Assembly (NCBI GenBank): GCA_025966365.1
Contig: JAICWV010000018.1
Location: forward strand, 1-35,442
DNA from: Chloroflexota bacterium
GTDB taxonomy: Bacteria; Chloroflexota; UBA5177
Length of the DNA stretch: 35,442 nt
Direction of reading: 5' to 3'
Positions 7,326 to 35,442 of this stretch are shown piece by piece (position 1 is the first letter of the stretch; the number at the start of each line of letters is the position of its first letter). The position numbers were made by a program, and so were the translations under genes. A model generated the notes under the pieces. It ran no database searches and was not told where the DNA came from. It worked only from the letters and a program-made list of their open reading frames with translations.

Positions 7326-7846
7326 TACAGCGACGACTGCACGCTGTTCAAGAAACGACCCATCCAGGCAAGCGGGGCCGATTGCGTCTCCGCTGCCATG
7401 GCATCGGCGTTCACAGGATGCACGGGGGCGAGCGGCGGCACCGCCACCTGCACCCAGATGTAGGCGCTGTTATCGGGGGCCGACATTCCCAGGCGAGTGC
7501 TGGCGGTCTGATCGATCCTGGTGGCGGACTGCAGAGAGGTGGCGCTGGTGCGCAGGGTTGTGTTGTTCGCGACCAGCTGCATGTGGTTGGAGCGCAGGAC
7601 GGAGAGGTTGATCTGCTGGACCGAGATCTGGCTCTCCTGGGCCATATACAGGAGAAAGGCCACGGCGATGAAGGTCATGGCCAGCATGAGCTGGACCAGA
7701 ACGGACTGGCCGAGCGCTTCCATCAGCCGCTCGCGCCCCGCCATTGCGGGCGCCGCCCGCAGCGACGGCAGCCGCCACACGCGCTCCTGCCCGATCGTTA
7801 CGCGCTGCGGAACCGGTACTGCCCTGTCTGCAATCATGTCTTCCAC
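7325..7846 (-). CDS. ftsL: FtsL-like septum-formation protein
   Basis: 173 residues: a polar N-terminal region of about 47 residues, one transmembrane helix (about 48-70, SVLVQLMLAMTFIAVAFLL), then an extracytoplasmic stretch rich in Gln, Ser, Leu and Asn that should form a coiled coil (about 70-125), and a Pro/Ala-rich end. This layout and the place between rsmH and ftsI are those of FtsL, which forms a bitopic complex that activates FtsWI. FtsL sequences diverge strongly, so the call rests on topology and position. The C-terminal extension of about 45 residues is longer than in enteric FtsL. The start is 37 bases after the rsmH stop, with a GAGTGGAAG-type ribosome site upstream. Confidence 0.75.
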   Translation of the reverse strand: MEDMIADRAVPVPQRVTIGQERVWRLPSLRAAPAMAGRERLMEALGQSVLVQLMLAMTFIAVAFLLYMAQESQISVQQINLSVLRSNHMQLVANNTTLRTSATSLQSATRIDQTASTRLGMSAPDNSAYIWVQVAVPPLAPVHPVNADAMAAETQSAPLAWMGRFLNSVQSSL

Positions 7847-7883
7847 TCCTCGCTAGTTGGATTCATTGGTATCTGGGTGATGG

Positions 7884-8819: not shown

Positions 8820-9253
8820 GCCCCCGACGCGCTGAGCGCGTTCTTCGGCACCTGCTCGGTTTCAAGCCCCTGGAACCCTTGACTGATCTGATTCCAGGTG
8901 GTCCGATTCCAGACCTCCACACGGCTACCGACTCCAACCACGGTGACATCACCGGAGATGCCCGCGTACTCCCGCAGGTATGCCGGGACGATGACCCTTC
9001 CGTGGCTGTCGAAGTCACACGGAACCGCGCCGCTGAATAGCGCCCGAGCGCGAAGACGTGCTTCGGGGCGAAGGTCCTGGAGATCGTTAGCGGCTTGAGC
9101 GAGCGCTTCCCACTTCGCAGCCGGATAGATGCACAGACAATTGTCGAAGCTGCGAGTCATTACCGCACCATGTCCCAGGCCGTTCCGAAGTTCACCGGGA
9201 ATCGCCAGTCTGCCCTTGTCGTCCACGGTTCTGTCATACTGCCCGAGAAACAC
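8816..9253 (-). CDS. mraZ: MraZ, transcriptional regulator of the dcw operon
   Basis: 145 residues made of two tandem SpoVT/AbrB-like half domains. Each carries the DxxGR signature: DDKGRLAIP near residues 11-19 and DSHGRVIVP near the middle. MraZ forms a ring-shaped oligomer that binds TGGG repeats in its own leader and controls the operon. I chose the GTG at 9253 because it gives the family N-terminus MFLGQYDRTVDDKGR and has a GAAAGG ribosome site about seven bases upstream. The longer open frame reaching 9469 would run through the promoter and operator and is not credible. The stop overlaps the rsmH start by four bases. Confidence 0.93.
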   Translation of the reverse strand: MFLGQYDRTVDDKGRLAIPGELRNGLGHGAVMTRSFDNCLCIYPAAKWEALAQAANDLQDLRPEARLRARALFSGAVPCDFDSHGRVIVPAYLREYAGISGDVTVVGVGSRVEVWNRTTWNQISQGFQGLETEQVPKNALSASGA

Positions 9254-9337
9254 TGCGTTACCTTTCGCCACTAGCTCCCACAGCTGTCCGCGATCGAGGC
9301 TCCGTGGGCCTTGCTTGAGGGGTGATCCTCCATTTAT

Positions 9338-9362
9338 CCCCACTTGCTCCCACTTTCTCCCA
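9338..9362 (-). promoter_or_regulatory. MraZ operator: three TGGG boxes at 10-base steps
   Basis: On the minus strand the leader reads TGGGA, five bases, TGGGA, five bases, TGGGG (box ends at 9362, 9352 and 9342). This is the direct-repeat pattern known for MraZ sites, (TGGGN-N5)x3. A further TGGGT at 9378-9382 lies in the promoter spacer, one empty step away. The boxes begin just downstream of the -10 element, so bound MraZ would cover the transcription start. The natural reading is autoregulation of the whole dcw operon. Confidence 0.88.
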
Positions 9363-9370
9363 CAGAGCAC

Positions 9371-9399
9371 ATTAAACACCCATGGCCGGCGGAAATCAA
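9371..9399 (-). promoter_or_regulatory. Promoter of the mraZ/dcw operon
   Basis: On the minus strand, TTGATT (-35, bases 9394-9399) is followed by a 17-base spacer and TTTAAT (-10, bases 9371-9376). This matches four of six and five of six sigma-70 consensus positions at ideal spacing. Transcription should start near 9364, right at the first MraZ box, leaving a leader of about 110 bases before the mraZ GTG. Confidence 0.75.
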
Positions 9400-9460
9400 G
9401 AGGGACGAAAGGAGAACGAGCCGGACGTTTTCGTTGCAGGAAGCCAAAAGTGGAAGCGGT

Positions 9461-9489
9461 TGTGGACAAATCCCAAAAATTGTGGACGA
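9461..9489. promoter_or_regulatory. Pair of DnaA-box-like motifs between mraZ and the HAD gene
   Basis: TGTGGACAA (9461-9469) is the exact reverse complement of TTGTCCACA, the DnaA box form common in GC-rich bacteria. TGTGGACGA (9481-9489) differs by one base. The two lie in the same orientation exactly 20 bases apart, on one face of the helix, about 60-95 bases upstream of the dcw promoter and just upstream of the HAD gene. Binding by DnaA is an inference. Confidence 0.45.
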
Positions 9490-9506
9490 CGAACGTCCCC
9501 TACACT
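9480..9506 (+). promoter_or_regulatory. Candidate promoter giving a near-leaderless HAD transcript
   Basis: TACACT (9501-9506) matches four of six -10 positions. TTGTGG (9480-9485) could serve as -35 at a short 15-base spacing. Transcription would begin near 9512-9515, at the ATG itself. The lack of any ribosome-binding site before that ATG fits leaderless translation. Confidence 0.3.
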
Positions 9507-9514
9507 GGGCGGCT

Positions 9515-10240
9515 ATGCGGCCGGTGATCTTCCTCGACAGCGGCGGGGTCATCAACGACAACCAGGCGCGAGCTCCCCAATGGCGGCGTCACGTGGCCGA
9601 GTACTTCGCACCGCGCCTCGGCGGTGACGGGCCTGCCTGGGAGGAAGCGAACCGGATCACGCTGGAGCGCATCATCCAGCCCGCCGCCTGGGAGGCCCGC
9701 ATGCAGGAGTCCAGCGATTGGCTTTCCTTCGACCGCCAGTACAACCTCGACTGGCTGCGGTCGATGTGCGGGCTGGTGGGAGTGCCGTGTCCCGGTGAGG
9801 ATGAAGCGCTGAGGCTGGCCGGCGACGCCGGCCGCACGATCATCAGGCTTGTGCGGGCGCCGATGCCTGGAGCAGCCGGTGCGATTCTGGCTCTACACCG
9901 CCTCGGCTTCGAACTGCATACCGCCTCGGGCGAGTACTCGGAGGACCTCGATTCGATTCTCACTGACCTGGGGGTCCGGCAGTGCTTCGGCCGGCTCTAT
10001 GGCCCCGACCTTATCAACACCCTCAAAGCAGGTCCGGAGTACTACCGGCTCGTCTTCAAGGGTGCCGGTGTACGGCCGGCGGAGACGCTGGTGGTGGACG
10101 ATAGTGCCCGCGCATTGCGATGGGCGGAGCAGGTGGGCGCGCCAACGGTGCTGGTACAGAGAGAGCCGCCGCCCGGATGGGCGACGGCTCACATTGGGTC
10201 ACTGGCGGAACTCCCTCGACTGCTCGAGGGACGGACCTAG
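9515..10240 (+). CDS. HAD-superfamily hydrolase-like protein with altered motif I
   Basis: 241 residues. The haloacid-dehalogenase fold is suggested by motif I near the N-terminus (IFLDSGGVI, Asp8), a small helical cap, motif II around HTASGE (Thr136/Ser138), Lys171 in LKAGPEYY and the Asp pair VVDD (195-196). In HAD phosphatases motif I is DxD; here the second Asp is Gly10, so the usual acid/base residue is missing. The protein may be a non-phosphatase member, have unusual chemistry, or bind without catalysis; the substrate is unknown. The ATG at 9515 gives a clean family N-terminus; there is no Shine-Dalgarno site before it. The longer frame upstream crosses the dcw promoter. The gene is divergent from mraZ and convergent with the next gene (four-base gap). 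Confidence 0.8.
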   Translation: MRPVIFLDSGGVINDNQARAPQWRRHVAEYFAPRLGGDGPAWEEANRITLERIIQPAAWEARMQESSDWLSFDRQYNLDWLRSMCGLVGVPCPGEDEALRLAGDAGRTIIRLVRAPMPGAAGAILALHRLGFELHTASGEYSEDLDSILTDLGVRQCFGRLYGPDLINTLKAGPEYYRLVFKGAGVRPAETLVVDDSARALRWAEQVGAPTVLVQREPPPGWATAHIGSLAELPRLLEGRT

Positions 10241-10244
10241 TCCG

Positions 10245-11579
10245 CTACGGCCTCGTGGTGTAGTAGGTGTAGCAGTTGCCGTTGTTGTTGTCGATCTCCG
10301 GCTGGCCGTTTCTCGGTATGGTGACCGCCTCGTAGTAGTACTGTGTGCCGGGGGTAATACCGACATCTCCGACCGTGCCGGGAAGGTCATTGCCAGATAC
10401 AAAGACGGTATGGGTTGTGGAGGTTGGGGAGATGTCGCGCGTGGCTACCTCAACCAGGGCATTGCAGCTGGGACCGAAGTAGATCATGCCCTGCCCCGGT
10501 ACCTTGCTGTAGAAGGTCACCGCAAACCCGCTTGCGACGGACAGCGGCGTGTTGTTCGCCATCGGCTGCGTGAGATCGGTCATGGGCTGCACCGAGCCGT
10601 CGCAGGTATGCAGCAGGCAGCCCAGATCCCAATTGTCCTGGATGGTCTTCATCAGGGAGTAGTGGTTGTACGCGTTGAGCGAGACCAGGTGCGTCGGTGT
10701 ATTGGTGATGACGATGGTGGGAACCCGTCCGCCGCCGTCGTTGGGCGGGCTGCCGCAGCACCCCTCAGTTCCCGCGTAGCCGCGCGTCGGTCCGCTGGAA
10801 GGCAACCCGCTGGACTCGTTCTCGTCCCAGGTGACGACGATGACTGAGTCGGAGGTCCAGGCGGGTGATGACATGATGGTCGTCACCAGCGTTTTCAGAT
10901 AGCTGTCGGCCGCCTGGACGGTCGCATGAGGGATGACGAAGTTCGGCGGATAGCCGCACCAGGGCATGCCATAGGCGGCGGCGCTGGGCGGTGAAACGCC
11001 GTGCATGTCGTGGCACTCGTCGGGGGCCAGGAACGCATAGTTCGGCGCCGTGCCCGTCGCCAGGTCGGTGGCGAGGTCGTCCATGGGCTTGATGTTCTTC
11101 AATCGGTTCGCGTTACTGTTGATGTCGTTGAACAGCATGAAAGGATTGTGCTTCTTGACGTACAACCCCGTTCCGGTCGCCGGGTACTGATCCACTGTCG
11201 AGCCGACTGCCGGCAATCCCTGTTGGTAGGTGGCCCAGGTCAGCCCCTTCGACTCCAGCTGATCGACGAGGTTGGTGGCATCTGACCGGAAGCTGGGATC
11301 ATCGGCGTGCAGACCGAAGAAGTCGCCGGCGATGCTCGCGATGTAGTTGGGCTCGCTGGGGTGCGTGACCCCGTAATAGTTGGCGGCAAAGCCGTACGTG
11401 CTGATCAGTGAGTTGATATAGGGAGCGTCGGCCATATTTCCGACGATCGCGTCGTAGCTGGTGTTCTCCTCCATGATCACATAGATGTGACTGAAGCCTG
11501 GGGCCGCGGACGCCTGGGTGAACTGGGGCAGGAACAATGCCAGCGCGATCGCCAGGGACGAGACAACGCGAATAAGCAT
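10245..11579 (-). CDS. Secreted phosphoesterase family protein (phospholipase C/acid phosphatase type)
   Basis: 444 residues beginning with a Sec signal peptide (about 1-25, hydrophobic core then ASAAP). The mature part opens with FSHIYVIMEENTSYDAIVG, the N-terminal metal-site motif of the phosphoesterase family that includes bacterial phospholipases C and AcpA-like acid phosphatases. It continues with THPSEPNYIASIAGD, VVTWDENESS and a His-containing motif LNAYNHYSLMKTI. The last 100 or so residues form a separate beta-rich region ending in GTQYYYEAV, similar to a fibronectin-like module. It would act outside the membrane on phosphate esters; whether lipid or small molecule cannot be told. 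The ATG at 11579 has a strong GAGGAGG ribosome site six bases upstream. The gene is divergent from hpt. Confidence 0.85.
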   Translation of the reverse strand: MLIRVVSSLAIALALFLPQFTQASAAPGFSHIYVIMEENTSYDAIVGNMADAPYINSLISTYGFAANYYGVTHPSEPNYIASIAGDFFGLHADDPSFRSDATNLVDQLESKGLTWATYQQGLPAVGSTVDQYPATGTGLYVKKHNPFMLFNDINSNANRLKNIKPMDDLATDLATGTAPNYAFLAPDECHDMHGVSPPSAAAYGMPWCGYPPNFVIPHATVQAADSYLKTLVTTIMSSPAWTSDSVIVVTWDENESSGLPSSGPTRGYAGTEGCCGSPPNDGGGRVPTIVITNTPTHLVSLNAYNHYSLMKTIQDNWDLGCLLHTCDGSVQPMTDLTQPMANNTPLSVASGFAVTFYSKVPGQGMIYFGPSCNALVEVATRDISPTSTTHTVFVSGNDLPGTVGDVGITPGTQYYYEAVTIPRNGQPEIDNNNGNCYTYYTTRP

Positions 11580-23711: not shown

Positions 23712-23790
23712 GGTCCCGTGGTGTAGTCTGGTTTAACATGCCACCCTGTCAAGGTGGAGATCGCCGGTTCAAATCCGGTCGGGACCGCCA
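23712..23790 (+). tRNA. tRNA-Asp (GTC)
   Basis: A full cloverleaf. The acceptor is GGTCCCG/CGGGACC (23712-23718 with 23780-23786), the D stem GTGT/ACAT, the anticodon stem CCACC/GGTGG with loop CTGTCAA (anticodon GTC), and the T arm GCCGG-TTCAAAT-CCGGT. The discriminator G and an encoded CCA end (23788-23790) are present. The GTC anticodon reads Asp codons GAC and GAT. Confidence 0.97.
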
Positions 23791-23796
23791 CCATCT

Positions 23797-23822
23797 GCCG
23801 GCTGAAGGGCCGGCTTTTTGTT
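23797..23822 (+). terminator. Intrinsic terminator of tRNA-Asp
   Basis: GCCGGC (23797-23802) pairs with GCCGGC (23809-23814) around a six-base loop, followed by TTTTTGTT. It ends the tRNA transcript, so the glycosidase operon downstream needs its own promoter or read-through. Confidence 0.85.
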
Positions 23823-23909: not shown

Positions 23910-25685
23910 ATGCTGGTCCGCCGCGAGGAAGCAGAGTGCTTTACCTCGGATTCCTATACCCTTCGCTTCGATACGGAGCGCCCCTTCGTGACTCTGTCCG
24001 ATTCCGGTGGCAGCGTCATCGCCGAGTTGTTCGCGCTGGCGGGTGTCAACACCGAGACGGGACTGGACGACGCTGCGCGCATCGGCGAGTGGACCCGCAC
24101 CGAGAGCACGGCCAGCGTTGACTACTCGCTGGACGTCGTCAGTTCTGTCTGGGAGCGGAAGACGGTTCGCTTCCGCTGTTTTCCGACTCGTTTTCTCCAC
24201 GAGGTTGAGGTGGAGGGATGCGGCTCCCTGACGGGGATAACGTACTTTGGCGGCTACATGTCGGCTGTTCCTCGCTGGGGCTCCGGTTTCTTCCTCTCCG
24301 GCCACGCCTTCACCAGGCTTTTCAATCCGGAGCCGAACACCGAGGATCGCAACTACCTTTCGCCAGATGCCGGGTCGGTCATCGACCTCACCGGCGCGCC
24401 TCTGCCCGGCAAGCGTCATTGGTTTTTCAACCCACCGCCGTTCTGCTTCGGTGCCGAGAGCCCCACGGGCTGGATCGGATTCGGCGTCGAGACGGCGCCG
24501 GGCCAGAACCGCTTCACGGAGTATCGGTACCATGGCGCCGATGGTTTCTGGCTGTCCTTGTCATACGAGGGCCACACCGAGGTGCGAGGTACATACGTCC
24601 TTCCGGCTATCGGAGTGGATTTCGGTACGAGCGAATACGAGGTACTGGCAGCACATGCTGACGGCCTGCGGCGGGTGGGCCGGGCCCCCGATATTCACCG
24701 TGCCAGGCCGGAGTGGTGGTCGCGGCCGATGTTCTGCGGCTGGGGCGCCCAGTGTGCCCGGGCGGCGGACGAGTTGGGTCGTGAGAGCCCGCGCGCATTT
24801 CTTGCAGCCATGGCTCACGCTCGGGACTACGCTCGCCAGACCGAGTACGAGAGCTTTCTCTCCACACTGGCGTCTCATGGAATCCGGCCCGGAACCGTGG
24901 TGCTCGACGACAAGTGGCAGAGCACATACGGAGAGAACGAGGTCGACAGTGAGAAATGGCCGGACTTGCCCGGGTTTGTTGCCCGGAGGCATGCCCAGGG
25001 CCAGCGCGTGCTGCTCTGGCTCAAGGCCTGGGACCGTGAGGGCGTTCCCGATGAGGAGTGCATCCGAAACGCGGCAGGTTTGCCGCTCTCGGTCGACCCG
25101 ACCAATCCCGCCTTCGAAACTCGCCTTCGCGCGTCAGTGCGCCGGATGCTGGGACCGGACGGATACGACGCTGACGGTTTCAAGATCGACTTCACCCACC
25201 GGATCCCGGTGGGTCCGTCCCTTGGGCTGCACGGGGACACGTGGGGGCTGGAGCTGATGAAGCGTTATCTGGAGATCATCTACGACGAGGCCAAACGGGT
25301 GAAAGACGAGTCCCTGGTGATGACACACACACCCAATCCCTATCTGGCCGATGTCACGGACATGATCCGACTGAACGATATGCTCGATCTAACCAGGCTG
25401 GATGACCCGACGGCGGGAATGGATATCGGGCGAACTCTGACCCACCGTGCGGCCGTGGCCCGAATTGCCTGCCCGGATGCCCTGATCGACACTGACAACT
25501 GGCCGGTTCGCAGCCGAGCCGTCTGGCGCGACTACGCACGGCTACAGCCGTCTCTGGGCGTGCCCTCTCTGTACTTCTCAACCGAGATCGACTTGACCGG
25601 CGAGCCGTTGGAAGAAACCGACTACGAACTTATCCGTGAGGCATGGAATGGTATCAATAGCCCCTGTCCCGCCGGGACCGGATAG
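23910..25685 (+). CDS. TIM-barrel glycoside hydrolase of GH31/GH36 type
   Basis: 591 residues: an N-terminal beta-rich domain (about 1-270), then a catalytic barrel beginning near VVLDDKWQSTYGEN and KWPDLPGFVARRHAQGQRVL. The strand YDADGFKIDF carries the likely nucleophile D427 (KxD, as in GH31/GH36/GH27 retaining alpha-glycosidases). DTDNWP (D527/D529) may hold the acid/base, but I cannot fix it. Substrate could be alpha-galactoside, alpha-glucoside or another alpha-linked sugar. No signal peptide. The start at 23910 is preferred for GGGAG four bases upstream; ATG 23853 would add 19 residues but has no ribosome site. It opens the glycan operon and overlaps the next gene by 38 bases. Confidence 0.78.
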   Translation: MLVRREEAECFTSDSYTLRFDTERPFVTLSDSGGSVIAELFALAGVNTETGLDDAARIGEWTRTESTASVDYSLDVVSSVWERKTVRFRCFPTRFLHEVEVEGCGSLTGITYFGGYMSAVPRWGSGFFLSGHAFTRLFNPEPNTEDRNYLSPDAGSVIDLTGAPLPGKRHWFFNPPPFCFGAESPTGWIGFGVETAPGQNRFTEYRYHGADGFWLSLSYEGHTEVRGTYVLPAIGVDFGTSEYEVLAAHADGLRRVGRAPDIHRARPEWWSRPMFCGWGAQCARAADELGRESPRAFLAAMAHARDYARQTEYESFLSTLASHGIRPGTVVLDDKWQSTYGENEVDSEKWPDLPGFVARRHAQGQRVLLWLKAWDREGVPDEECIRNAAGLPLSVDPTNPAFETRLRASVRRMLGPDGYDADGFKIDFTHRIPVGPSLGLHGDTWGLELMKRYLEIIYDEAKRVKDESLVMTHTPNPYLADVTDMIRLNDMLDLTRLDDPTAGMDIGRTLTHRAAVARIACPDALIDTDNWPVRSRAVWRDYARLQPSLGVPSLYFSTEIDLTGEPLEETDYELIREAWNGINSPCPAGTG

Positions 25686-28386
25686 CGCCGCCGGGCACCT
25701 GCCCTTCTATCGGCTGTTTCTGGTTCATCACACCCACTGGGATCGTGAGTGGTGGGCCACCTATCAGGACTTTCGGGTACGGTTGGTGGACCTGATCGAC
25801 ACGCTCCTCGATACCCTCGATCGCGTGCCCGACTTTGACAACTTCCTGCTGGACGGTCAGACGGTCGTGCTGGATGACTACCTCGAAATCCGGCCGGAAA
25901 ACCGCGAGCGACTGATCCGGCACATTCGAACCGGACGGATTCAGTGCGGTCCCTGGTACATCCTGCCCGACGAGTTCCTGGTCAGCGGAGAATCTCACAT
26001 CCGGAATCTCTGGCTCGGGATCAGAATCGGTCGCAAGCTCGATGTGCCTCTCCTGCGGATCGGCTACACGCCGGACCTATTCGGGCACATAAGCCAGATG
26101 CCCCAGATTCTTCGCGGGTTCGGCATCGACAACGCCTTCGTCTGGCGGGGACGGGGTGGCCAGCCAGGTCAGGTGAAGCAGGAGTTCCTGTGGCGGTCAC
26201 CGGACGGAAGCGAGGTGCTGGCGCATTGGTTTCCGAACGGCTACTACCAGATGCCGTTCCTGCACTTCGGCAATCCGGACCGACCCTATGAGGACAAGTT
26301 GGGCCGGATTCGACAGGCGATGGAGGACTTTGGAGCTCGGGCCTCGACCGGCGCCCTTCTCCTGCCGTACGGGGGAGATCACCGGCCAATCGATCCCGAC
26401 CTTCCCGCCAAGATCCGCGAGGCCAACGCCCAGATCGAGGGGGAGGGCGAGGTCATCTGGGCCACGCCGGAGGAGTACCTGGGCGCGGTTCGAGAGGCAC
26501 AGCCAGAGCTCGCGATCGAATCCGGAGAGCTCAGAGCCTTTGGACCGGCGTTCCCCCTCGTTCTACCTGGCGTCCTTTCTACACGACTCTATCTCAAGCG
26601 TCGTAACGCCCTGGGACAGATGTGGCTGGAGCGGATGGCGGAGCCGATGTCGGCGCGAGCCTGGCTGGCAGGAGGACGCTACGACGCGGGTTTTCTCTGG
26701 AAGGCCTGGGAGCTTCTGGTGCAAAACCACCCGCATGACAGCATTTGTGGCTGCAGCATCGATCAGGTGCACCGAGAGATGCTTCCCCGATTCGACCAGT
26801 CTCGGCAGATTGCGGAAGTGCTCACGCGCCGGGCGGCTGCGACCATTGCCGAATCCATAGACACCTCGTCGTTCCGTGAGGGCGATCGGGCTATTGTCGC
26901 CCACAACACCGTGCCTCTCTCTCGCACAGGGTGGGTGTCTGTCTGGATCCCACGCGACCGCACTATCTCCCCACGGAGCCACGTCTTGCTGGATAGCCGC
27001 GGGACAGAAACTCCCTTTCAGACCCGTGATGTGGAGGGCGTGGTCCCGACCAGCGACCGATACCTCTGGACCGAAGTCGGCTTCGCAGCCGAGGCCGTGC
27101 CTGGACTGGGACATCGTACCTATCGGCTGACGCAGCGAGAGATTCCCCTGGACGTCAAGCAGGTGTTTTTCACGAGCAGGCACCCCACCGCCCGCTACAA
27201 AGGGAGTCTGCAGGTAAGCGATCTCAGCGTGGGGGATAACTCGCTTGAGAACCGTTACCTGCGCGTCGAGGTGAATCCGGATACCGGCGAGCTCGCGGTG
27301 ACCGACAAGCGCAGTGGCAGCGTCTACCCGCGACTGCACACCTTCCGAGACGGTGGAGACGCCGGGGACGCGTACAACTATTCTCAGCCGCTGAACGACC
27401 TGGTGCGACATTCGGCGGGACAGGCTCGCGTGCACGTGTCGGTGGCAGTGGCGGGATACGCTCGTGCGACGTTGCGCGTTGATCTCGACTGGCTCCTGCC
27501 GGAATCGCTGACGCCCGACCGGCTCAGCCGCAGCGCCCTGGACCTCCCGACGCGGATCTCTTCGTTTGTCACGCTCACCTCCGGAGTCCCGCGCGTCGAT
27601 ATAGAGTCCGAGTGGGACAACGTTTCCTGCGATCATCGCCTCCAGGCTCTCTTTCCCCTGGGGGCTGCGGTGGAGCAATCCGCTGCGCTCGGCGATTTTG
27701 TCGTGGAGGAGCGGCCGGTCGCTCCCCCCGACCCCGGGAACGGCTGGCCGGAACCGCCTGTTCCAACCGCCCCCAACTCCGGGTGGGTCAGCGTGTGCAG
27801 CGGCGCTCTCGGTCTCACCATCGCCAACCGGGGGCTTCCGGAGTACGAGGTACTGCCGGACGGCACGGTCGCGTTGACGGTACTTCGCTCGGTGGGCTGG
27901 CTATCGCGGGAGGACATTCTGTCCCGGGTGGGCGGAGCCGGGCCGGAAACGCCCGCCCCCGATGCGCAGTGCCTCGGACTCAACCTCGTCAGTTACAGCA
28001 TCATTCCTCATGCCCGGGACTGGCTTACCTCGGCCGCCTATCGCGAAGCAGAGTCGTATCTGTCCCCCTTCTATGGATCGGAAACCGGGATTCACCCGGG
28101 GACGGATTCGCTCGACGGAGGAATGACCGAACTGGAAGGTGATCATACGCTGGTGAGCAGCGCGCTCAAGAAAGCCGAGGACGGAGAACGCCTTGTGCTC
28201 CGCGCCTGGAACGCGGCACGCGATGAGACGGTGGCCTGGCTGAGGCTGGGCCGCAGGCCACGCACCGCCCGGCGGGCCGACCTTCGGGAGGAGGTGGATG
28301 ACGCGCTTCTGCCGATGGACGCTGAGGGGCGGGTCCGGATTTCGGCCGGACCGGCTGAGATCGTGACTGTCATCGTGGAATTTTGA
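25648..28386 (+). CDS. GH38 alpha-mannosidase (first copy)
   Basis: 912 residues, the length of full GH38 enzymes. The catalytic domain starts at once: HTHWDREWW (zinc ligands H28/H30 region and D32), then GYTPDLFGHISQMPQIL with nucleophile D143. FVWRGRGGQPG and NHPHDSICGCSIDQVHREM (third zinc-site region) follow, with the beta-sandwich domains beyond residue 400. It removes alpha-linked mannose from oligosaccharide non-reducing ends, in the cytoplasm by absence of a signal peptide. ATG 25648 follows GAGG by six bases; a GTG at 25636 is possible. It overlaps the preceding gene by 38 bases and its stop shares a base with the next start, so the genes are tightly coupled. It is clearly diverged from the second GH38 in this operon. 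Confidence 0.93.
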   Translation: MVSIAPVPPGPDSAAGHLPFYRLFLVHHTHWDREWWATYQDFRVRLVDLIDTLLDTLDRVPDFDNFLLDGQTVVLDDYLEIRPENRERLIRHIRTGRIQCGPWYILPDEFLVSGESHIRNLWLGIRIGRKLDVPLLRIGYTPDLFGHISQMPQILRGFGIDNAFVWRGRGGQPGQVKQEFLWRSPDGSEVLAHWFPNGYYQMPFLHFGNPDRPYEDKLGRIRQAMEDFGARASTGALLLPYGGDHRPIDPDLPAKIREANAQIEGEGEVIWATPEEYLGAVREAQPELAIESGELRAFGPAFPLVLPGVLSTRLYLKRRNALGQMWLERMAEPMSARAWLAGGRYDAGFLWKAWELLVQNHPHDSICGCSIDQVHREMLPRFDQSRQIAEVLTRRAAATIAESIDTSSFREGDRAIVAHNTVPLSRTGWVSVWIPRDRTISPRSHVLLDSRGTETPFQTRDVEGVVPTSDRYLWTEVGFAAEAVPGLGHRTYRLTQREIPLDVKQVFFTSRHPTARYKGSLQVSDLSVGDNSLENRYLRVEVNPDTGELAVTDKRSGSVYPRLHTFRDGGDAGDAYNYSQPLNDLVRHSAGQARVHVSVAVAGYARATLRVDLDWLLPESLTPDRLSRSALDLPTRISSFVTLTSGVPRVDIESEWDNVSCDHRLQALFPLGAAVEQSAALGDFVVEERPVAPPDPGNGWPEPPVPTAPNSGWVSVCSGALGLTIANRGLPEYEVLPDGTVALTVLRSVGWLSREDILSRVGGAGPETPAPDAQCLGLNLVSYSIIPHARDWLTSAAYREAESYLSPFYGSETGIHPGTDSLDGGMTELEGDHTLVSSALKKAEDGERLVLRAWNAARDETVAWLRLGRRPRTARRADLREEVDDALLPMDAEGRVRISAGPAEIVTVIVEF

Positions 28387-29903
28387 TGAGTGTTGGGAGG
28401 ACCGCTCTGGAGCTGCTCGGGGTTGACGTGGGCACGACACACTGCAAGGCTGCTGTCTACGATCCGGCGGGCAGGTGCACAGCCCTCGCCTCCGGTCCGA
28501 CTCCGGTGCGGCAGGACACTGGCGGCCGGCCCTTTATCGGTCCGGATGCGCTGTGGGCGTGCGTGGCCTCCTTGATCACGAAAGCTGCAGACGGGATGCA
28601 GCTGGGGATCGTGGGCGTGGCGGGTATGGCGGAGGCCGGTCTCCTCGTGGATCGAGCCACCGGCATTCCCCGCTCCGAGATCATCCCCTGGTATGACTCC
28701 CGCTCCTCCGTCCAGGCTGACCGGATGGAGATGATGGAGCCGGCCAAGACCGGATTCCGCCGATCGGGTTTGCATCCCAGCTTCAAGTACGGGCTGGCGA
28801 AAATCCTCTGGCTCAGAGATCGCGACGAGACGGCACTGGAAGGCTCTGTCTGGCTGTCTGTGCCTGATTACATTGTCTACCGGTTGACGGGGCACATGGT
28901 GACGGACCCGTCCCTCGCCGCCCGGACCTATGCCTACTGTGTTCCCGGCAGCCAGTGGGACCAGGCCTGGATCGAGCGGCTGGGTCTTGCTCCCTCCATG
29001 TTTCCGCCCGTACTGCCCAGCGGTGTCCCTGTCGGTGGGGCCGATGGCGTCGGGGCGGCGGAGTGCGGTCTCGCCTCTGGGACCCCGGTCGCCGTGTCCG
29101 GTCACGATCATATCTGCGCACTTGCCGGCGTTGGAATCACGAACAGCGGACCGGTCCTGGATTCCATGGGGACCGCTGAGTCACTGATGGGGGTGATGCC
29201 GCGGTGGGACGACCGCGCCTACGACTCGGGGCTGACCGAGGCTCCCTGCGTCCTTCCCGGCCGATACTGCTGGCTGGGCGGGCTGCCCGCGTCGGGCGGA
29301 TCCATCGAGTGGCTACGGGCGCAACTGGGTGAACGTCCGGTCCCGTATTTGGAGCTCGAGCGCCTGGCGGCTGACGCCGGCCCCGAACCCACCGGCATTA
29401 TCTATTTCCCGTACCTCTCCGGCAGTGGAGCACCTCGACACGACCAGAACGTACGAGCCGCGTTTCTCGGGCTGAGCGCCCGCCACGGTCGCGGAGACCT
29501 GATTCGCGCCGTCATGGAGGGCACCGCCTATCAGTCGCTCTCGATCCTGTATGCGGCCCGGGACCTGACCGGCGTGGATGCGTCCGAGGTACTGGCGGTC
29601 GGGGGCGGTACCAGGAGCCGCGAATGGCTCCAGATCAAGGCGGACGTCAGCGGGAAGCGGCACCTCGTCCCGGAAGACGAGGAGGCGGCAGTTCGCGGTG
29701 CTGCCTTCACCGCCGCCCTCGGCGCCGGTCTGCTCGACCTCGATTCCCTGCCCATGGCCGGCGGGGTGACGGCATTTGACCCGGATGCCGAGAGGCACGC
29801 CCGATACCTCGAGCACTTCGAGACCGAATTCGTTCCCTTTCAGCGCCCGCTTCGGACTCTGGACGCATCGGGAACAGCAGCAACGAGCCTGGCCCATGCC
29901 TGA
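28386..29903 (+). CDS. FGGY-family carbohydrate kinase
   Basis: 505 residues with the two-domain actin-like fold. The N-terminal phosphate motif is LGVDVGTTHCKAAVYD (Asp14), the substrate domain contains GMAEAGLLVD and PWYDSRS, the central SGHDHICALAGVG and LDSMGTAES form the ATP phosphate 2 region, and PYLSGSGAPRHDQNVRAAFL plus VLAVGGGTRSREWLQIKAD are the FGGY C-terminal signatures. FGGY kinases phosphorylate ketoses, polyols or sugar acids (xylulose, gluconate, glycerol and others); mannose and GlcNAc are usually left to ROK or hexokinase types, so its substrate here is puzzling. The ATG shares one base with the GH38 stop (TGATG). It overlaps the GH84 gene by eight bases. Confidence 0.9.
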   Translation: MSVGRTALELLGVDVGTTHCKAAVYDPAGRCTALASGPTPVRQDTGGRPFIGPDALWACVASLITKAADGMQLGIVGVAGMAEAGLLVDRATGIPRSEIIPWYDSRSSVQADRMEMMEPAKTGFRRSGLHPSFKYGLAKILWLRDRDETALEGSVWLSVPDYIVYRLTGHMVTDPSLAARTYAYCVPGSQWDQAWIERLGLAPSMFPPVLPSGVPVGGADGVGAAECGLASGTPVAVSGHDHICALAGVGITNSGPVLDSMGTAESLMGVMPRWDDRAYDSGLTEAPCVLPGRYCWLGGLPASGGSIEWLRAQLGERPVPYLELERLAADAGPEPTGIIYFPYLSGSGAPRHDQNVRAAFLGLSARHGRGDLIRAVMEGTAYQSLSILYAARDLTGVDASEVLAVGGGTRSREWLQIKADVSGKRHLVPEDEEAAVRGAAFTAALGAGLLDLDSLPMAGGVTAFDPDAERHARYLEHFETEFVPFQRPLRTLDASGTAATSLAHA

Positions 29904-31323
29904 GTCACCGTTCGCTATCCGGGGAGTCATCGAAGGCTTCTATGGAACGTACTACACGTTTCCCGAACGCAACGATCTGATCCGGTTCCTCGGACGACAC
30001 GGCTTTAACTTTTATGCGTACGGACCCAAGAACGACCGGCAGCACCGCATGCGTTGGTGGGACCCCTACCCTCCGGAAGTCCTGAGGCAGTTCGGACGGA
30101 CGATCGGCATCGCGCGTGACGTCGGAGTCGACTTTTGCTACACGATATCCTTCGGTGTACCGCCCAGCTATGCCACCGCCGAGGACTTTGACGCGGTTAC
30201 CGAGAAGCTCCGGCACTTCTACGACATGGGCTGCCGAAACTTCGGCATCCTCCTCGACGACTCGCCCACCGGGTTCTCCCACGAGGCCAATCGCAGGGCC
30301 TTTCCCTCCGTCGCAGCTGCCCATGCCGACTTTTGCAACCGCACCCTTGCCTGGCTCAGGACGCTGCCGGAGCATTGCTCGCTGCTTATGGCCCCGACCG
30401 AATATTTCGGGTTTCCTCCCTTTACCGAGTATTTGCACGACCTGGGGCGGCTCCTGGACCCTGGCATTGCTGTCTGCTACACGGGCAGGAACATCTGCGT
30501 GCCTACCCTCACCGTTGCCGATGCCGACGCGTTCGCGGCAGTCGTTGGGCGCAAGCCCCTCGTCTGGGACAACTATCCGGTTAACGATCTGCAGATGAAG
30601 CCGCAGCTTCACCTGGGCCCGCTCGAGGGGCGCGATCCACACCTGCCGGAAGCAGTGATGGGGATGCTGTTCAATCCCATGCTGCAGGCGGAAGCATCCA
30701 AGATTCCGTTGCTCACGATTGCGGAATATCTCACAGACCCTCTCGGCTACAATCCGACTGCCGCCTGGGAGCGTGCAATTCGCGCGGTGGCGGGCGACCG
30801 CGGCTACGGCGCGATGCACGTTTTCGCCGAGAATTGTCTGGGCTCATGCCTGCATGCGGAGGAGGCCCCCCTGACTGATCGCCTCACCTCTGCGGCGCTG
30901 TCGGCGATCCAGGCCGGCGAGCGCGTGGATGACAGTGCGTCGGTGGCTGCCTTGAGCGAGTACCTGGACCGCGTCGACGAGTCCATCTACAACATTCGCA
31001 ACCGCATGCCCAATACCACGCTGCGTCAAAACATCCTTCCCTGGGTCGAATCACTCGACGAGAAGTTGTGGCTGGGTCGCCGCGCCCTCAGCGTCCTTCG
31101 AGCGCGGCAGGATGGCGAGGACACTGCCCGGGTTTTAGCCGGGTTGAAAGAGTCAATCGGCGAGGTGCGTTCCAATCCGAGAAGTGTTGGGGGCACGCAA
31201 TTGGCGGCGCTGGGCGAATATGTGTACCGGCTGGTCGAGGATGTGGCCGGCGGTGAGGAACCCCGGGTTCCTGAACCGCAGCGGCATGAATACGGAGGGG
31301 CGGCTTTCGCCGCCGATCGGTAG
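29896..31323 (+). CDS. GH84 beta-N-acetylglucosaminidase
   Basis: 475 residues. The barrel begins at once with RGVIEGFYGTYYT, the hallmark of GH84 (O-GlcNAcase/NagJ family), followed by NFYAYGPKNDRQHR. The adjacent catalytic Asp pair D121-D122 lies in GILLDDSPTGF; the enzymes work by substrate-assisted catalysis through the N-acetyl group. The loop PLVWDNYPVND is also typical. The C-terminal 120 residues are helical. No signal peptide is present, so it should act in the cytoplasm on GlcNAc-containing oligosaccharides. The ATG at 29896 lies eight bases inside the kinase stop; the longer frame upstream is kinase sequence in another frame. Its neighbours suggest work on N-glycan-like fragments. 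Confidence 0.9.
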   Translation: MPESPFAIRGVIEGFYGTYYTFPERNDLIRFLGRHGFNFYAYGPKNDRQHRMRWWDPYPPEVLRQFGRTIGIARDVGVDFCYTISFGVPPSYATAEDFDAVTEKLRHFYDMGCRNFGILLDDSPTGFSHEANRRAFPSVAAAHADFCNRTLAWLRTLPEHCSLLMAPTEYFGFPPFTEYLHDLGRLLDPGIAVCYTGRNICVPTLTVADADAFAAVVGRKPLVWDNYPVNDLQMKPQLHLGPLEGRDPHLPEAVMGMLFNPMLQAEASKIPLLTIAEYLTDPLGYNPTAAWERAIRAVAGDRGYGAMHVFAENCLGSCLHAEEAPLTDRLTSAALSAIQAGERVDDSASVAALSEYLDRVDESIYNIRNRMPNTTLRQNILPWVESLDEKLWLGRRALSVLRARQDGEDTARVLAGLKESIGEVRSNPRSVGGTQLAALGEYVYRLVEDVAGGEEPRVPEPQRHEYGGAAFAADR

Positions 31324-31329
31324 CCGCTC

Positions 31330-32640
31330 ATGGCGTTCGTGTCTCCCTCGCCGGTACTGGACCGTGCCCGTGATGAAGCCGAAGGCATCCTTCTGGGTAA
31401 CGGGGGAGAACTCGGTCTCCTTGGGTCCAGCACCGCCTATCAGCAGGTATGGGCACGGGACAGCATGATATGCGGGCTGGGCCTCCTGCTGGGGCGGGAT
31501 CCGGAAGGAGAGCGGATCTACACTCGCTCGCTGGAGACCCTTCGCCGCTACCAATCCCCGCTGGGCCGGATACCGCACAACGTCGGTAGGGCCAATGTAT
31601 CGGACCCTGCTCTGATCGCCCACGGCGGACGGCTGGAGGGAGAGAACATCGTCATCGACACCATCCACGCCGGGTGTGTCGACGGCGCCCTCTGGTATAT
31701 CGTCGGCCATTACCTGCGCTACATCGCGACCGGCGAGATTGAGTTGACGAATACGGCCTGGGACAGCCTGGAGCAAGCGCTCCTCTGGCTCCGGTATCAG
31801 GACTCCAATGAGTGCGGTCTCATCGAAGTGCACGAGGCCATGGACTGGGCCGATCTCTTCGTCAACCGCTACAACGTTCTGTACGACAACGTCCTTTACT
31901 TTGCCGCGTGGAACGCTATGGCCATTCTGGCCGAGGCAACGGGACGGCCCGCGAAGCAGTATCGGCGCACTGCTCGAGACGTGCGGCGCAAGGTCAACGC
32001 CGTACTCTGGGTCGGCCCTGAAGAGCCCCGAGACTGGGAGTGGATTGCCGAAGAGCGGCGCGAGTGGCTGTACACCTTGCGCCGCATCGAGACCGAGCTG
32101 GTCGAGCGACCGTTCTATCTGCCCTACGTCGCGTTTCGCGACTACGCGGACCGGCTGGACACTCTCGGAAATCTCCTGGCCATCATTACCGGTGTCGCGG
32201 ATGAGATCAAGTCGAAGAAAATTCTGGATTACATTGCCGCCACCGGGTTGAACCGGCCCCGGCCCGTGCGCGCACTCTATCCGGTCATCAATCCGGGCGA
32301 GCGCGATTGGCGCGACTACTATCGCGTCCGCAACCTCAACCTGCCCAATCACTACCACAACGGAGGGGCCTGGCCCTTTATCGGGGGTTTTTATGTTGCG
32401 GCACTGGTCCAGGCGGGCCGGCAGGACGAAGCCCGTGATGAGCTGGACCACCTGACCGCCATGGTCCGAGTCGGAAAGACGCGGGAGTGGGGTTTCAACG
32501 AGTGGTTTCATGGACTTTCCGGCGAACCGATGGGATACGATGGTCAGTCCTGGTCGGCGGCACTCTACCTGTTCGCGCTGGAAGCGGTTCGGCGGGGAAG
32601 CGTGCCTATGTTTGGAGAAGAACGCTGGGCGTGCGAGTGA
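31330..32640 (+). CDS. Six-hairpin glycosidase (debranching-enzyme/GH100-like)
   Basis: 436 residues predicted to form an (alpha/alpha)6 barrel. Motifs include NGGELGLLGSSTAYQQVW followed by ARDSMI, then VDGALWYIVGHYLRY, ALLWLRYQDSNECGLIEVHE, MDWADLFVNRYNVLYDNVLY, NGGAWPFIGGFYVAAL and GFNEWFHGLSGEPMGYDGQSW. These resemble amylo-alpha-1,6-glucosidase C-domains, neutral invertases (GH100) and GH63 glucosidases. The acidic residues in EVHEAMDWAD and FNEWFHG are candidate catalytic groups. Exact family and sugar are not settled. It starts six bases after the GH84 stop with no strong ribosome site, so translation may depend on the upstream gene. No signal peptide. Confidence 0.75.
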   Translation: MAFVSPSPVLDRARDEAEGILLGNGGELGLLGSSTAYQQVWARDSMICGLGLLLGRDPEGERIYTRSLETLRRYQSPLGRIPHNVGRANVSDPALIAHGGRLEGENIVIDTIHAGCVDGALWYIVGHYLRYIATGEIELTNTAWDSLEQALLWLRYQDSNECGLIEVHEAMDWADLFVNRYNVLYDNVLYFAAWNAMAILAEATGRPAKQYRRTARDVRRKVNAVLWVGPEEPRDWEWIAEERREWLYTLRRIETELVERPFYLPYVAFRDYADRLDTLGNLLAIITGVADEIKSKKILDYIAATGLNRPRPVRALYPVINPGERDWRDYYRVRNLNLPNHYHNGGAWPFIGGFYVAALVQAGRQDEARDELDHLTAMVRVGKTREWGFNEWFHGLSGEPMGYDGQSWSAALYLFALEAVRRGSVPMFGEERWACE

Positions 32641-32701
32641 AAGAATGTTTGATCCGCCCGGCCGTGAGCCGCCGGCGGGGTCAGGATAGACGAGGAATCA
32701 G

Positions 32702-35188
32702 ATGACAATCGGTGAGGAAGAGCGAACGCGAGCCGGCTCTCGGACGGAGCACGATATCAAGGACTACATCCTGGACATGATCGGGAATGCCCATCTGGAC
32801 CCCGTGTGGCTCTGGCAGTGGCAAGAGGGTTTTCAGGAGGCCAAGGCGACCTTCCGCTCCGTCCTGAATCTCATGCGTGAGTACGATGACTTCCTGTTCA
32901 CCTCGAGCTCGGCCGCGATCTACGAGTGGGTCCAGGAGAACGACCCGGACATGTTCGAGGAAATCAAGCAGCGGGTGGCCGAGGGCCGCTGGGAGATTGC
33001 CGGGGGCTGGTGGATCCAGCCGGACTGCAACATTCCCAGCGGGGAGTCGTTCGTTCGGCAAGGGCTCTACGGGCAGCGGTATTTCAAGGAGAACCTGGGA
33101 GTGGCGGCCACGGTCGGCTACAACGTGGACAGCTTCGGCCACGCCGCATCACTGCCGCAAATCCTTCGCAAGAGCGGCATGGACTCCTATGTCTTCATGC
33201 GACCCATGCCGCACGAGGCGCGGCTGCCCCGCCTCTTCCACTGGGAGTCCGAGGATGGGTCCCGCGTGCTGACCTATCGCATCCCCTACGAGTACACCTC
33301 CTGGGGCAAGGATTTACGCCTGTATATCGAGCGCACCATGTCGGAATTTCGGGGGGGACTGGATGAGCTGATGTGCTTTTATGGCGTGGGCAATCACGGT
33401 GGAGGTCCGACGCGCGAGAACCTGGAGAGCATCCATGCCTTGAATCGGGACTCCGGATTTCCCACACTCCGGCTCAGCACGCCCTCCAGGTATTTCCGCT
33501 CCGTGCGTGACAGGGACGTGAGTCCGCCGACCGTCCAGAACGAGTTGCAGCAGCATGCGATTGGCTGCCATTCCGCGCACTCCGGAGTGAAGCTCTGGAA
33601 TCGACAGGCTGAAAACGCACTGGTGACGGCGGAAAAAATGTCTGTCCTGGCAGAGCGAGTGAGCGGGTTGCCGTACCCGGGCGACTTCGGCCGTGCCTGG
33701 AAGAACGTCCTCTTCAATCAGTTCCACGACATCCTGGCCGGGACAAGCATCGAACCGGCGTACGAGGATGCGCGCAATCTCTACGGGGAGGCGCTGACAA
33801 TAGCCGGCCGCAACCTCAATGGAGGGGTCCAGGCTATCAGCTGGCGAGTGAATATCGAGGAGGAGGAGGGAGCACGTCCGTTCGTCGTGTTCAATCCGCA
33901 CGCCTGGCCCATCCATGCCCCGGTCGAGGTCGAGTTCGGGCGCGTTCGCCCCGAAGACGTTCTGCTTGGCTCGTCCAGCCAAACGGTACAGTCGCAAGCC
34001 GTCCAGCCGCTGGCCAGCGTATCGGGGCCGCGGGAGCGACTAGCCTTTATTGCCGATCTTCCCCCATTCGGGTACGAAACCTATCGCCTCGTGCCAGGGG
34101 AGGACGTCGAAACCCCGCCGCCCATGGCGGCCGACCGAAAATCCATGGAGAACCGCTTCTTTCGGATGGAGATAGATCCGGCCACCGGCTGGATTACCAG
34201 CCTCTATGACAAGCGGCTTCAGTTCGAGTGGATCCGGAGGCCGGCAGCTCGTCCTTTCGTTCTAGAGGACCGCAGCGACACCTGGAGCCACGGCGTCACG
34301 CGTTACGACACCGTGGAAGGAGAGTTCACGGCCGAATCGGTGCGCCTGGTGGAGCACGGCCCCGTTAAGTCCGTGATCCGCGTGGACAGCGTGTACCGGT
34401 CATCCCGAGTCACGCAGGACTTCGCCATGTACGCCGATCTCGACTACATCGAGGTTGAGGTGAAGGTTGACTGGCACGAGCGGTTCACGCTGCTCAAGCT
34501 CGATTTTCCCATCAATGTCTACTTCTCAACCGCCACTTTCGAGATCCCTTACGGGGTGATAGAACGCGCAGCAAACGGCAACGAAGTGCCGGCCCATAAC
34601 TGGGTCGATCTGACGGGCATCGGCCGCGGCGATGGTCGCCGGATGGGCATGAGTATCCTGAACGATGGGAAGTACAGCCTTGACGTCGTGGAGCACGCAA
34701 TTCACCTGACCGTCCTCCGCAGCCCTATTTTCGCCCACCACGACCCGTACGTTCCCGAGCCCGGCCGGGACTACACCTTCATGGACCAGGGCGCACAACG
34801 CTTTACCTACCGTCTGCTTCCTCACGCCAACGGGTGGCAGGAGGCGGAGACGCCCAGACGCGCGCTGGAGCTCAACCAGCGGCCAATCGCTCAAATGGAG
34901 AGCTTCCACGAGGGACCGCTTCCGACCCGGCGCTCCTTCGCGCAGGTGGATGGTGATGGCGTTGCTGTGACGGCGCTCAAGCGCGCCGAAGACGGCGGAG
35001 GCACCATCATACGCTGCTTCGAGACCAACGACAGGCTGTCCAGGGCCACAATCGAGCTCACAGCATGGGATCGCTCAATCGACGTGATGCTCGCCCCGAC
35101 CGAGATCAAGACTTTTTTGGTTCCAGACGATAAATCGCAGCCCGTTCGCGAAGTGAACCTGATTGAGTGGGATGTGGAGCCGCTATAG
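32702..35188 (+). CDS. GH38 alpha-mannosidase (second copy, cytosolic ManA-like)
   Basis: 828 residues. The catalytic domain opens with IGNAHLDPVWLWQW (zinc ligands H31 and D33), then WIQPDCNIPSGESFVRQ, and GYNVDSFGHAASLPQIL with nucleophile D143. NQFHDILAGTSIEPAY holds the third His. These are the forms seen in cytosolic-type GH38 enzymes, clearly different from the HTHWDREW/TPDLFGH forms of the first copy, so the two are old paralogues and probably have different linkage preferences. The ATG at 32702 follows CGAGG by six bases. It comes 61 bases after the six-hairpin gene, the longest gap in the operon, and is the last gene visible. Confidence 0.93.
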   Translation: MTIGEEERTRAGSRTEHDIKDYILDMIGNAHLDPVWLWQWQEGFQEAKATFRSVLNLMREYDDFLFTSSSAAIYEWVQENDPDMFEEIKQRVAEGRWEIAGGWWIQPDCNIPSGESFVRQGLYGQRYFKENLGVAATVGYNVDSFGHAASLPQILRKSGMDSYVFMRPMPHEARLPRLFHWESEDGSRVLTYRIPYEYTSWGKDLRLYIERTMSEFRGGLDELMCFYGVGNHGGGPTRENLESIHALNRDSGFPTLRLSTPSRYFRSVRDRDVSPPTVQNELQQHAIGCHSAHSGVKLWNRQAENALVTAEKMSVLAERVSGLPYPGDFGRAWKNVLFNQFHDILAGTSIEPAYEDARNLYGEALTIAGRNLNGGVQAISWRVNIEEEEGARPFVVFNPHAWPIHAPVEVEFGRVRPEDVLLGSSSQTVQSQAVQPLASVSGPRERLAFIADLPPFGYETYRLVPGEDVETPPPMAADRKSMENRFFRMEIDPATGWITSLYDKRLQFEWIRRPAARPFVLEDRSDTWSHGVTRYDTVEGEFTAESVRLVEHGPVKSVIRVDSVYRSSRVTQDFAMYADLDYIEVEVKVDWHERFTLLKLDFPINVYFSTATFEIPYGVIERAANGNEVPAHNWVDLTGIGRGDGRRMGMSILNDGKYSLDVVEHAIHLTVLRSPIFAHHDPYVPEPGRDYTFMDQGAQRFTYRLLPHANGWQEAETPRRALELNQRPIAQMESFHEGPLPTRRSFAQVDGDGVAVTALKRAEDGGGTIIRCFETNDRLSRATIELTAWDRSIDVMLAPTEIKTFLVPDDKSQPVREVNLIEWDVEPL

Positions 35189-35442
35189 ATGGGGCACGGT
35201 TCCTCAATCTCTGGGTTTTGCCGCGGTCTGGTGTGCTGGGCCACGAGACGTAGAACGGTGCCTCAGTGGCCGGCTCCCCTGGCTCGCCATGGCTGTTGAT
35301 CCGACCAATGCCTGTCTGTGCTCTGCTTCTCGCAACCGGCTGGTTGGGTCACCAGACCACTGCCTCCCGGTAGCTGGTCCCTCCGCGGGCCGGATGGGCA
35401 CGGACCAGGGGGGTGGGTAGGAACCAGAAGGGGATCGACCCA
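35189..35442. other. 254-base end region without a convincing gene
   Basis: No frame here shows protein-like features, and no intrinsic terminator was seen. Inverted repeats are present: CTGGTCC and GGACCAG around a 21-base loop near 35370-35410, and a smaller GTCT-x-GTG/CAC-x-AGAC pair near 35225-35250. A purine-rich AGGAACCAGAAGGGG near the very end could precede a start codon beyond the window. It may be the 5' part of a mobile element or just the gap to the next gene. Confidence 0.3.

Follow-up and report, generated by a model that had tools for sequence, protein, structure and literature searches.

A putative glycan-degradation operon with two types of GH38 mannosidase and a GH84 enzyme beside a tRNA-Asp gene in a Chloroflexota genome

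Gene content of the operon

The window (the whole stretch of DNA analysed, 35,442 nucleotides) contains an operon of six co-directional genes at 23910-35188, all on the + strand. The operon and its flanking features are as follows.

23712..23790, +, tRNA-Asp(GTC), left boundary of the inserted segment (ARAGORN); ends 120 bases before the operon
23797..23814, +, terminator-like hairpin and T-run between tRNA-Asp and the operon (pattern scan)
23910..25685, +, clan GH-D barrel glycosidase (GH31/GH36-like), 591 aa (Pfam GH31, 25.7 bits, cut-off 23.5)
25636..28386, +, GH38-1, SpGH38/MngB-like alpha-mannosidase (Pfam GH38N, PRK09819, structure-chain matches)
28386..29903, +, FGGY carbohydrate kinase (Pfam FGGY_N 104.3, FGGY_C 90.7)
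29896..31323, +, GH84 beta-N-acetylglucosaminidase, without signal peptide (Pfam NAGidase/GH84, 275 bits, cut-off 25)
31330..32640, +, six-hairpin glycosidase related to GH100 and glucosylglycerate hydrolase (Pfam GH100 52 bits, MGH1-like 42.7)
32702..35188, +, GH38-2, Ams1/B. longum Man38-like alpha-mannosidase (Pfam; 7vqo, 7ufs and 6lz1 at 209-243 bits)
35189..35442, no strand, noncoding tail up to the contig end; the operon ends 254 bases before the contig end, and contig C108 is placed next by synteny

All six open reading frames were confirmed at these coordinates. Junctions between the genes range from about -50 (overlap) to +61 bases (gap), and GC content by codon position is as expected for coding DNA, at 0.74-0.78 for position 3. 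Coordinates, strand and codon-position GC uphold the six-gene operon with overlaps or gaps of at most 61 bases proposed in a first-pass annotation, and Pfam matches above cut-offs agree with its family calls (a GH31/GH36-type barrel, two GH38 proteins, an FGGY kinase, GH84 and a six-hairpin glycosidase). It had also described the enzymes as lacking signal peptides. By a Kyte-Doolittle hydropathy proxy, rather than SignalP, this holds: over the first 45 residues the highest 15-residue mean is 0.47-1.09, and no operon protein has an N-terminal hydrophobic segment. Profile scans of 16 window proteins found no SusC/SusD pair, again as described, and among the window genes scanned there was no match to GH92, GH125 or GH20. 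No ABC importer lies between the operon and the contig end at 35442.

The GH38N Pfam scores of the two GH38 proteins are 125.9 and 225.3 bits (cut-off 25), the higher belonging to GH38-2. GH38-1 matched PRK09819, the mannosylglycerate hydrolase model, at 431 bits and structures 3lvt, 5kbp and 2wyh at 369-392 bits. GH38-2 also matches chains 7ufr-7ufu, which we take to be the B. longum Man38 set. The zinc and nucleophile motifs of the pair differ, as had been noted from the sequence alone, with HTHWDREW/PDLFGH in one protein and GNAHLDPVWLW/NVDSFGH in the other. By their matches, the two types correspond to the two known bacterial GH38 groups. An alternative ATG start for GH38-1 is possible at 25648.

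The GH84 protein retains the catalytic Asp pair (DD) and the motif WDNYPVND, and its nearest solved structure is the Thermobaculum O-GlcNAcase TtOGA (5diy, 240.7 bits). The FGGY kinase scored 219.5 bits against the XylB model, under the equivalog cut-off of 380. In two relatives its orthologues form a fusion with a class II ketose-bisphosphate aldolase; no relevant literature was found on this kinase-aldolase pairing.

Family placement of the barrel and the six-hairpin enzyme is uncertain. The barrel is barely above the GH31 cut-off in Pfam and nearest to GH31 alpha-galactosidases (8j53/8j50) in profile searches, whereas the best folds for its structure model (pLDDT 69, pTM 0.74) are GH36 FpGalNase and then GH31 MYORG. 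The barrel has invariant DGFKxD and IDTD motifs. For the hairpin enzyme, the GH100 match exceeds the cut-off of 23.6 bits but covers residues 275-417 only. Profile matches include 5goo (E 1.4e-17) and 5oi1 (E 1.5e-10), and glucosylglycerate hydrolase structures are among them. Residues D175 and E391 do not vary across the enzyme's own family. The structure model (pLDDT 49) was too poor for use. A role as GH125 substitute by homology was rejected, with neither a Pfam nor a structure match to GH125.

Insertion site

In two relatives from the same family (G003 and G005), hemG lies within about 30 bases after tRNA-Asp, representing the empty site. Synteny places contig C108 downstream of the window's contig (C30). 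This arrangement points to a single inserted segment, 22 kb or longer, separating tRNA-Asp from hemG, with the C30-C108 junction predicted from synteny. Beyond the operon, the island content on C108 comprises a beta-mannosidase-like GH2, a GH5, a xylulokinase and an SIS isomerase. The GH2, at the head of C108, is nearest to solved beta-mannosidases; it is cut by the contig edge, and its adjacency to the operon is likewise predicted by synteny. The C108 kinase is separate from the operon FGGY kinase and exceeds the XylB cut-off of 380 (567.7 bits). The tail of C30 was considered as the missing GH2 C-terminus, or as overlapping C108, and rejected because no such match was found. An att site formed by a duplicate of the tRNA 3' end at the far boundary was also rejected (no match of at least 12 bases), and no integrase occurs among the recognised genes; integrase-driven insertion is thus unproven. 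Elsewhere in the window genome, ROK and NagB genes lie on other contigs, and a relative's solute-binding protein (SBP) has no close homologue, the best matches being 25-27% over partial length.

Occurrence in related genomes

The first-pass annotation had proposed a search of related genomes for conservation of the gene order. The exact six-gene order was not found in the loci examined, which hold only sub-sets in other orders, and none of them shares the full gene set. Close hairpin and barrel homologues are missing from all six other genomes of the window's own class. In a sample of 298 genomes from a single related class, the same four genomes, and no others, carry the barrel and the close hairpin form (65-70% identical), a coincidence with a chance of about 1 in 3x10^8 if the two were independent. 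They are clustered in all four, and GH38-2 is also in the cluster in G401, G434 and G530. Hairpin homologues with 50-54% or about 45% identity have none of the other glycan genes beside them, except for ABC genes in some cases, which restricts the system to the close subgroup.

A sugar ABC importer of the form SBP-permease-permease is found in six relative loci (L005, L136, L151, L116, L004 and L064). GH84 lies beside the barrel in L004, L005 and L064, where importer genes are present, and FGGY is found in L005 and L064. A GH2 of the beta-mannosidase type adjoins GH38-2 in three relative loci, and relative clusters also include GH35. ROK, NagB and GH3 adjoin GH38-1, the barrel and the hairpin enzyme in L115. 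Neither an endo-N-glycosidase nor a GH92 was observed in these loci. Sulfatase and ThuA genes occur in or near relative clusters, and xylulokinase, isomerase and SIS genes recur beside GH38-2.

Predicted function

The operon is probably (about 60%) the catabolic half of an acquired island for N-glycan-type oligosaccharides built on Man-alpha-Man-beta-GlcNAc. Import and cytoplasmic breakdown of such a substrate are suggested by the enzyme families and motifs, the lack of signal peptides, the co-occurrence pattern, the importers and GH2 in relatives, the GH2 on C108, and precedents in other bacteria (PMC5215778, PMC6160142, PMC10154615). Gene content, enzyme families, catalytic motifs, co-occurrence and the insertion site are direct observations; we infer the substrate, the direction of import, the order of action and the roles of the barrel, hairpin enzyme and kinase. 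An ABC importer (SBP and two permeases), seen in relatives only, would carry released oligosaccharides into the cytoplasm. GH38-1 and GH38-2 would take off alpha-linked mannose and probably differ in the linkages they prefer; the GH2 across the assembly gap would cut Man-beta-GlcNAc, and GH84 would take GlcNAc off trimmed arms or the chitobiose core. The barrel, whose nearest characterised relatives are alpha-galactosidases, and the hairpin enzyme may strip capping or side sugars. One of the released sugars, probably first isomerised to a ketose, may be channelled by the FGGY kinase towards an aldolase.

Import-dependent cytoplasmic dismantling of a mannose/GlcNAc glycan, as first proposed, is thus supported by the importer and GH2 in relatives, but exact six-gene conservation is not supported. 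Several observations argue against the N-glycan reading. The assembled neighbourhood has no importer and the rest of the genome no close SBP homologue; none of the window genes scanned is a GH92, GH125 or GH20; ROK and NagB are on other contigs; and the exact gene set is unique. Mannose and GlcNAc are not usual substrates of FGGY kinases. In addition, a contig edge truncates the GH2, and it is synteny rather than sequence that joins C108 to C30.

Some of these genes would also suit a mannose-rich substrate other than an N-glycan, namely a bacterial or algal heteropolysaccharide oligomer or a glycolipid head group containing alpha-/beta-mannose and HexNAc. Genes for the barrel, the hairpin enzyme, GH35, FGGY/aldolase, sulfatase and ThuA fall outside the standard N-glycan repertoire, and the loci showed neither endo-N-glycosidase nor GH92. 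We nevertheless consider this substrate unlikely, since alpha-mannosidase, beta-mannosidase and beta-GlcNAcase, with NagB/ROK in a relative, form an N-glycan core signature. Action of GH38-1 and the hairpin enzyme on small solutes (mannosylglycerate and glucosylglycerate) rather than glycans is improbable. It would fit the PRK09819 match and the glucosylglycerate hydrolase structures among the hairpin enzyme's profile matches, but both proteins score far under the curated cut-offs (1138 and 550 bits), solved GH38-1 homologues are SpGH38-type mannosidases, and the operon has no glycerate kinase. It is very improbable that GH84 is an intracellular protein O-GlcNAcase, with its operon location incidental, as in Thermobaculum terrenum, whose TtOGA is intracellular and active (PMC4683255) and has identical catalytic residues, because a GT41 O-GlcNAc transferase partner (PF13844) was not found in the assembled genome by a search whose control worked, and GH84 sits in a glycosidase operon here and recurs by the barrel in the three relative loci above.

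Comparison with known systems

The first-pass annotation knew of no described system with this set. No precedent has this enzyme set, but cytoplasmic GH38 N-glycan loci have already been described, and Bifidobacterium, Streptococcus and Cutibacterium are known to use this strategy. Most descriptions of N-glycan catabolism in bacteria come from host-associated Bacteroidetes, Firmicutes and Actinobacteria, and nothing relevant to this gene set in Chloroflexota was found in the literature. If the N-glycan reading is correct, mobile, ABC-importer-linked N-glycan catabolism in Chloroflexota-type genomes would extend this range to groundwater and other environments.

Streptococcus pneumoniae has a cytoplasmic GH38-based N-glycan locus, SP_2141-2146, with the ABC_NG importer NgtS-P1-P2 (PMC5215778). 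Shared features are a GH38 of the same SpGH38 group, cytoplasmic exo-trimming, and an SBP with two permeases and no linked ATPase, although the importer is here seen only in relatives. The window genes scanned lack GH125, GH92, GH29, GH20 and ROK and instead include GH84, the GH-D barrel, the GH100-like hairpin enzyme and the FGGY kinase. Cutibacterium acnes has a cytoplasmic GH38/GH5_18/GH20 locus with ABC importer genes that follows the same alpha-mannosidase, beta-mannosidase and beta-hexosaminidase logic for a Man3GlcNAc2 core (PMC6160142), whereas the window genome has a beta-mannosidase-like GH2 and GH84 in place of GH5_18 and GH20, and two GH38 types. The B. longum operon, with three GH38 genes and a GH125 (reviewed in PMC10154615), likewise combines several GH38 genes, and GH38-2 resembles its enzymes in its chain matches, but the window pair comes from two different GH38 groups and the window has no GH125.

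The barrel and hairpin enzyme are two tightly co-occurring enzyme families whose specificity is directly testable. We tentatively suggest, as a minority possibility, that they are paired uncharacterised glycosidase families acting, with the FGGY kinase, on a decoration outside known bacterial N-glycan systems. A plant-type or algal-type N-glycan bearing xylose is one candidate, as suggested by the xylulokinase, isomerase and SIS genes beside GH38-2.

Operon structure and genomic surroundings

The first-pass annotation described a six-gene operon, and positions 23910-35188 are indeed filled by six plus-strand ORFs, overlapping or narrowly spaced and all coding by codon-position GC. The enzyme families named there were borne out, with the stated domains scoring over curated cut-offs in the operon proteins, and the N-termini (0/6 hydrophobic) agree with the claimed absence of signal peptides. 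The window covers contig C30 from end to end (35,442 bases); the draft genome it comes from totals 3.59 Mb over 253 contigs. The final 254 bases of C30 are noncoding. A mur/fts cluster at 1721-8819 (minus strand; MurD, MraY, a second Mur ligase, a PBP transpeptidase, and an RsmH-like ORF) is ordinary chromosomal surroundings.

Features before the operon and at the head of contig C108
C30, 23790: end of tRNA-Asp
C30, 23797-23814: terminator-like hairpin after tRNA-Asp
C30, 23910: ATG of the first operon gene, preceded by a purine-rich stretch
C108 head (L163, G000:C108), 1-10640: GH2, GH5, xylulokinase, xylose-isomerase-like TIM barrel, GmhA-like SIS protein, adenosylhomocysteinase-like protein

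Three same-family genomes share the order proDH - tRNA-Asp - hemG - miaB, with hemG about 30 bases from tRNA-Asp in G003 and G005 and a small ORF intervening in G004. C30 of the window genome carries proDH - tRNA-Asp, and contig C108 carries hemG - miaB - PNPase in the same orientation (MiaB 80% and PNPase 85% to G003). Given this split, the operon together with 10.6 kb at the start of C108 appears to be a single insertion of at least 22 kb, divided by an assembly gap; synteny would place C108 against C30 and make its head the right part of the insertion. The segment may also derive from more than one insertion event. A tRNA duplication at the far end was looked for and not found. The C108 xylulokinase scored 567.7 bits, exceeding the cut-off. 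The GH2 at the C108 edge is 35-37% identical to those of relatives L151 and L136 and has beta-mannosidases nearest; for the L136 GH2, beside GH38-2, the nearest solved structures are beta-mannosidases (5n6u, 2je8).

Related loci and co-occurrence

The six operon families were traced by BLAST in fetched loci of relatives. Conservation of gene order, a check proposed in the first-pass annotation, was not found, as none of these loci has the window's exact order.

Gene order in relatives (::, fused; SBP, solute-binding protein; MBL, metallo-beta-lactamase-type protein)
L005/L137 (Anaerolineae MAG): DeoR - barrel - GH35 - racemase - FGGY::aldolase - GH84 - SBP - permease - permease - hairpin enzyme - MBL - FAD oxidoreductase - GH38-2
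L151: LacI - SBP - permeases - barrel - GH35 - hairpin enzyme - MBL - GH38-2 - GH2
L136: LacI - SBP - permeases - hairpin enzyme - MBL - GH38-2 - GH2
L153: barrel - FGGY::aldolase - hairpin enzyme - MBL - GH38-2
L139: barrel - GH35 - racemase - FGGY - hairpin enzyme - MBL - ... - GH38-2
L115: GH38-1 - ROK - barrel - GH3 - NagB - hairpin enzyme
L118: GH38-1 - hairpin enzyme - SIS - ROK
L116: GH38-1 - barrel - SIS - SBP - permeases
L138: xylulokinase - ROK - SIS - GH38-2 - GH2
L064: racemase - barrel - importer - MBL - GH84 - FGGY

The MBL gene (L136:9704-11533, L005:15817-17613, L151:7285-9138) encodes a protein of about 600 aa, each half of which has metallo-beta-lactamase-type domains. In most clusters of the relatives this gene adjoins that of the hairpin enzyme; the window operon lacks it.

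In a sample of 298 genomes of G401's class, the barrel (≥440 bits) and hairpin enzyme (≥626 bits) both occur in G401, G434, G530, and G538, and neither occurs in the remainder. A close hairpin enzyme is present in 2/399 other genomes of a phylum sample, both with the barrel. The chance that both enzymes fall in the same four genomes of the class sample, if independent, is 1/C(298,4), about 3x10^-9, and the hypergeometric value for the phylum sample is 7.6x10^-5, but such probabilities exaggerate the independence of events because genomes within one class are kin. Less similar hairpin homologues occur without other glycan genes.

Enzyme families

GH38-1 resembles EfGH38 and SpGH38 over its full length (369-392 bits), and GH38-2 resembles the Ams1/7ufs group; they are thus two different known GH38 types. 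Their metal and nucleophile motifs are distinct, as first proposed, and each set is kept among its own relatives. Of the loci seen, only the window holds both types. In L152, a divergent GH38-like protein (7268-9691; PF01074, 50.6 bits, match from residue 311) replaces GH38-2 beside barrel and hairpin genes.

GH84 is nearest to T. terrenum TtOGA and retains the Asp pair. Its nearest named relatives (L004-L006) are Chloroflexota, which suggests that the window genome belongs to that phylum.

The barrel is a member of clan GH-D. By sequence profile it is nearest to GH31 alpha-galactosidases, and its predicted model (pLDDT 69) to GH36 FpGalNase and GH31 MYORG, a proven alpha-galactosidase (PMC9491548). 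The affinities of the hairpin enzyme are with GH100 invertases and with glucosylglycerate hydrolase, and no GH125 appeared among its homology and profile matches. D175 and E391, kept throughout its family, are taken to be the catalytic acids. A remoter homologue (about 45%) adjoins a phosphofructokinase-like gene in L122, L123, and L127 (G334, G165, and G340), with an aldolase-like gene nearby in 2/3.

FGGY orthologues in two genomes are natural fusions to a class II ketose-bisphosphate aldolase (L005:7128-9653; L153:8162-10699, minus strand), which argues for a ketose as kinase product. An Asp/Glu racemase-family gene lies immediately upstream of FGGY in L139 (2911-3576) and L005 (6466-7128).

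Proposed pathway and known systems

Oligosaccharides would be imported through an ABC system, known from relatives only. In the cytoplasm, the two GH38 enzymes are predicted to remove alpha-mannose, GH2 beta-mannose, and GH84 GlcNAc; the barrel and hairpin enzyme may strip further sugars, and the FGGY kinase would channel one released product. NagB-like and ROK genes are present elsewhere in the window genome.

Systems of S. pneumoniae (PMC5215778), C. acnes (PMC6160142), and B. longum (reviewed in PMC10154615) pursue the same strategy by means of other enzymes. The window system, as read from its genes, would share this strategy and differs in its enzyme set, so we count it as a variant: the window genes scanned lack GH125 and GH92, GH84 replaces GH20, and there are genes for the barrel, the hairpin enzyme, and FGGY.
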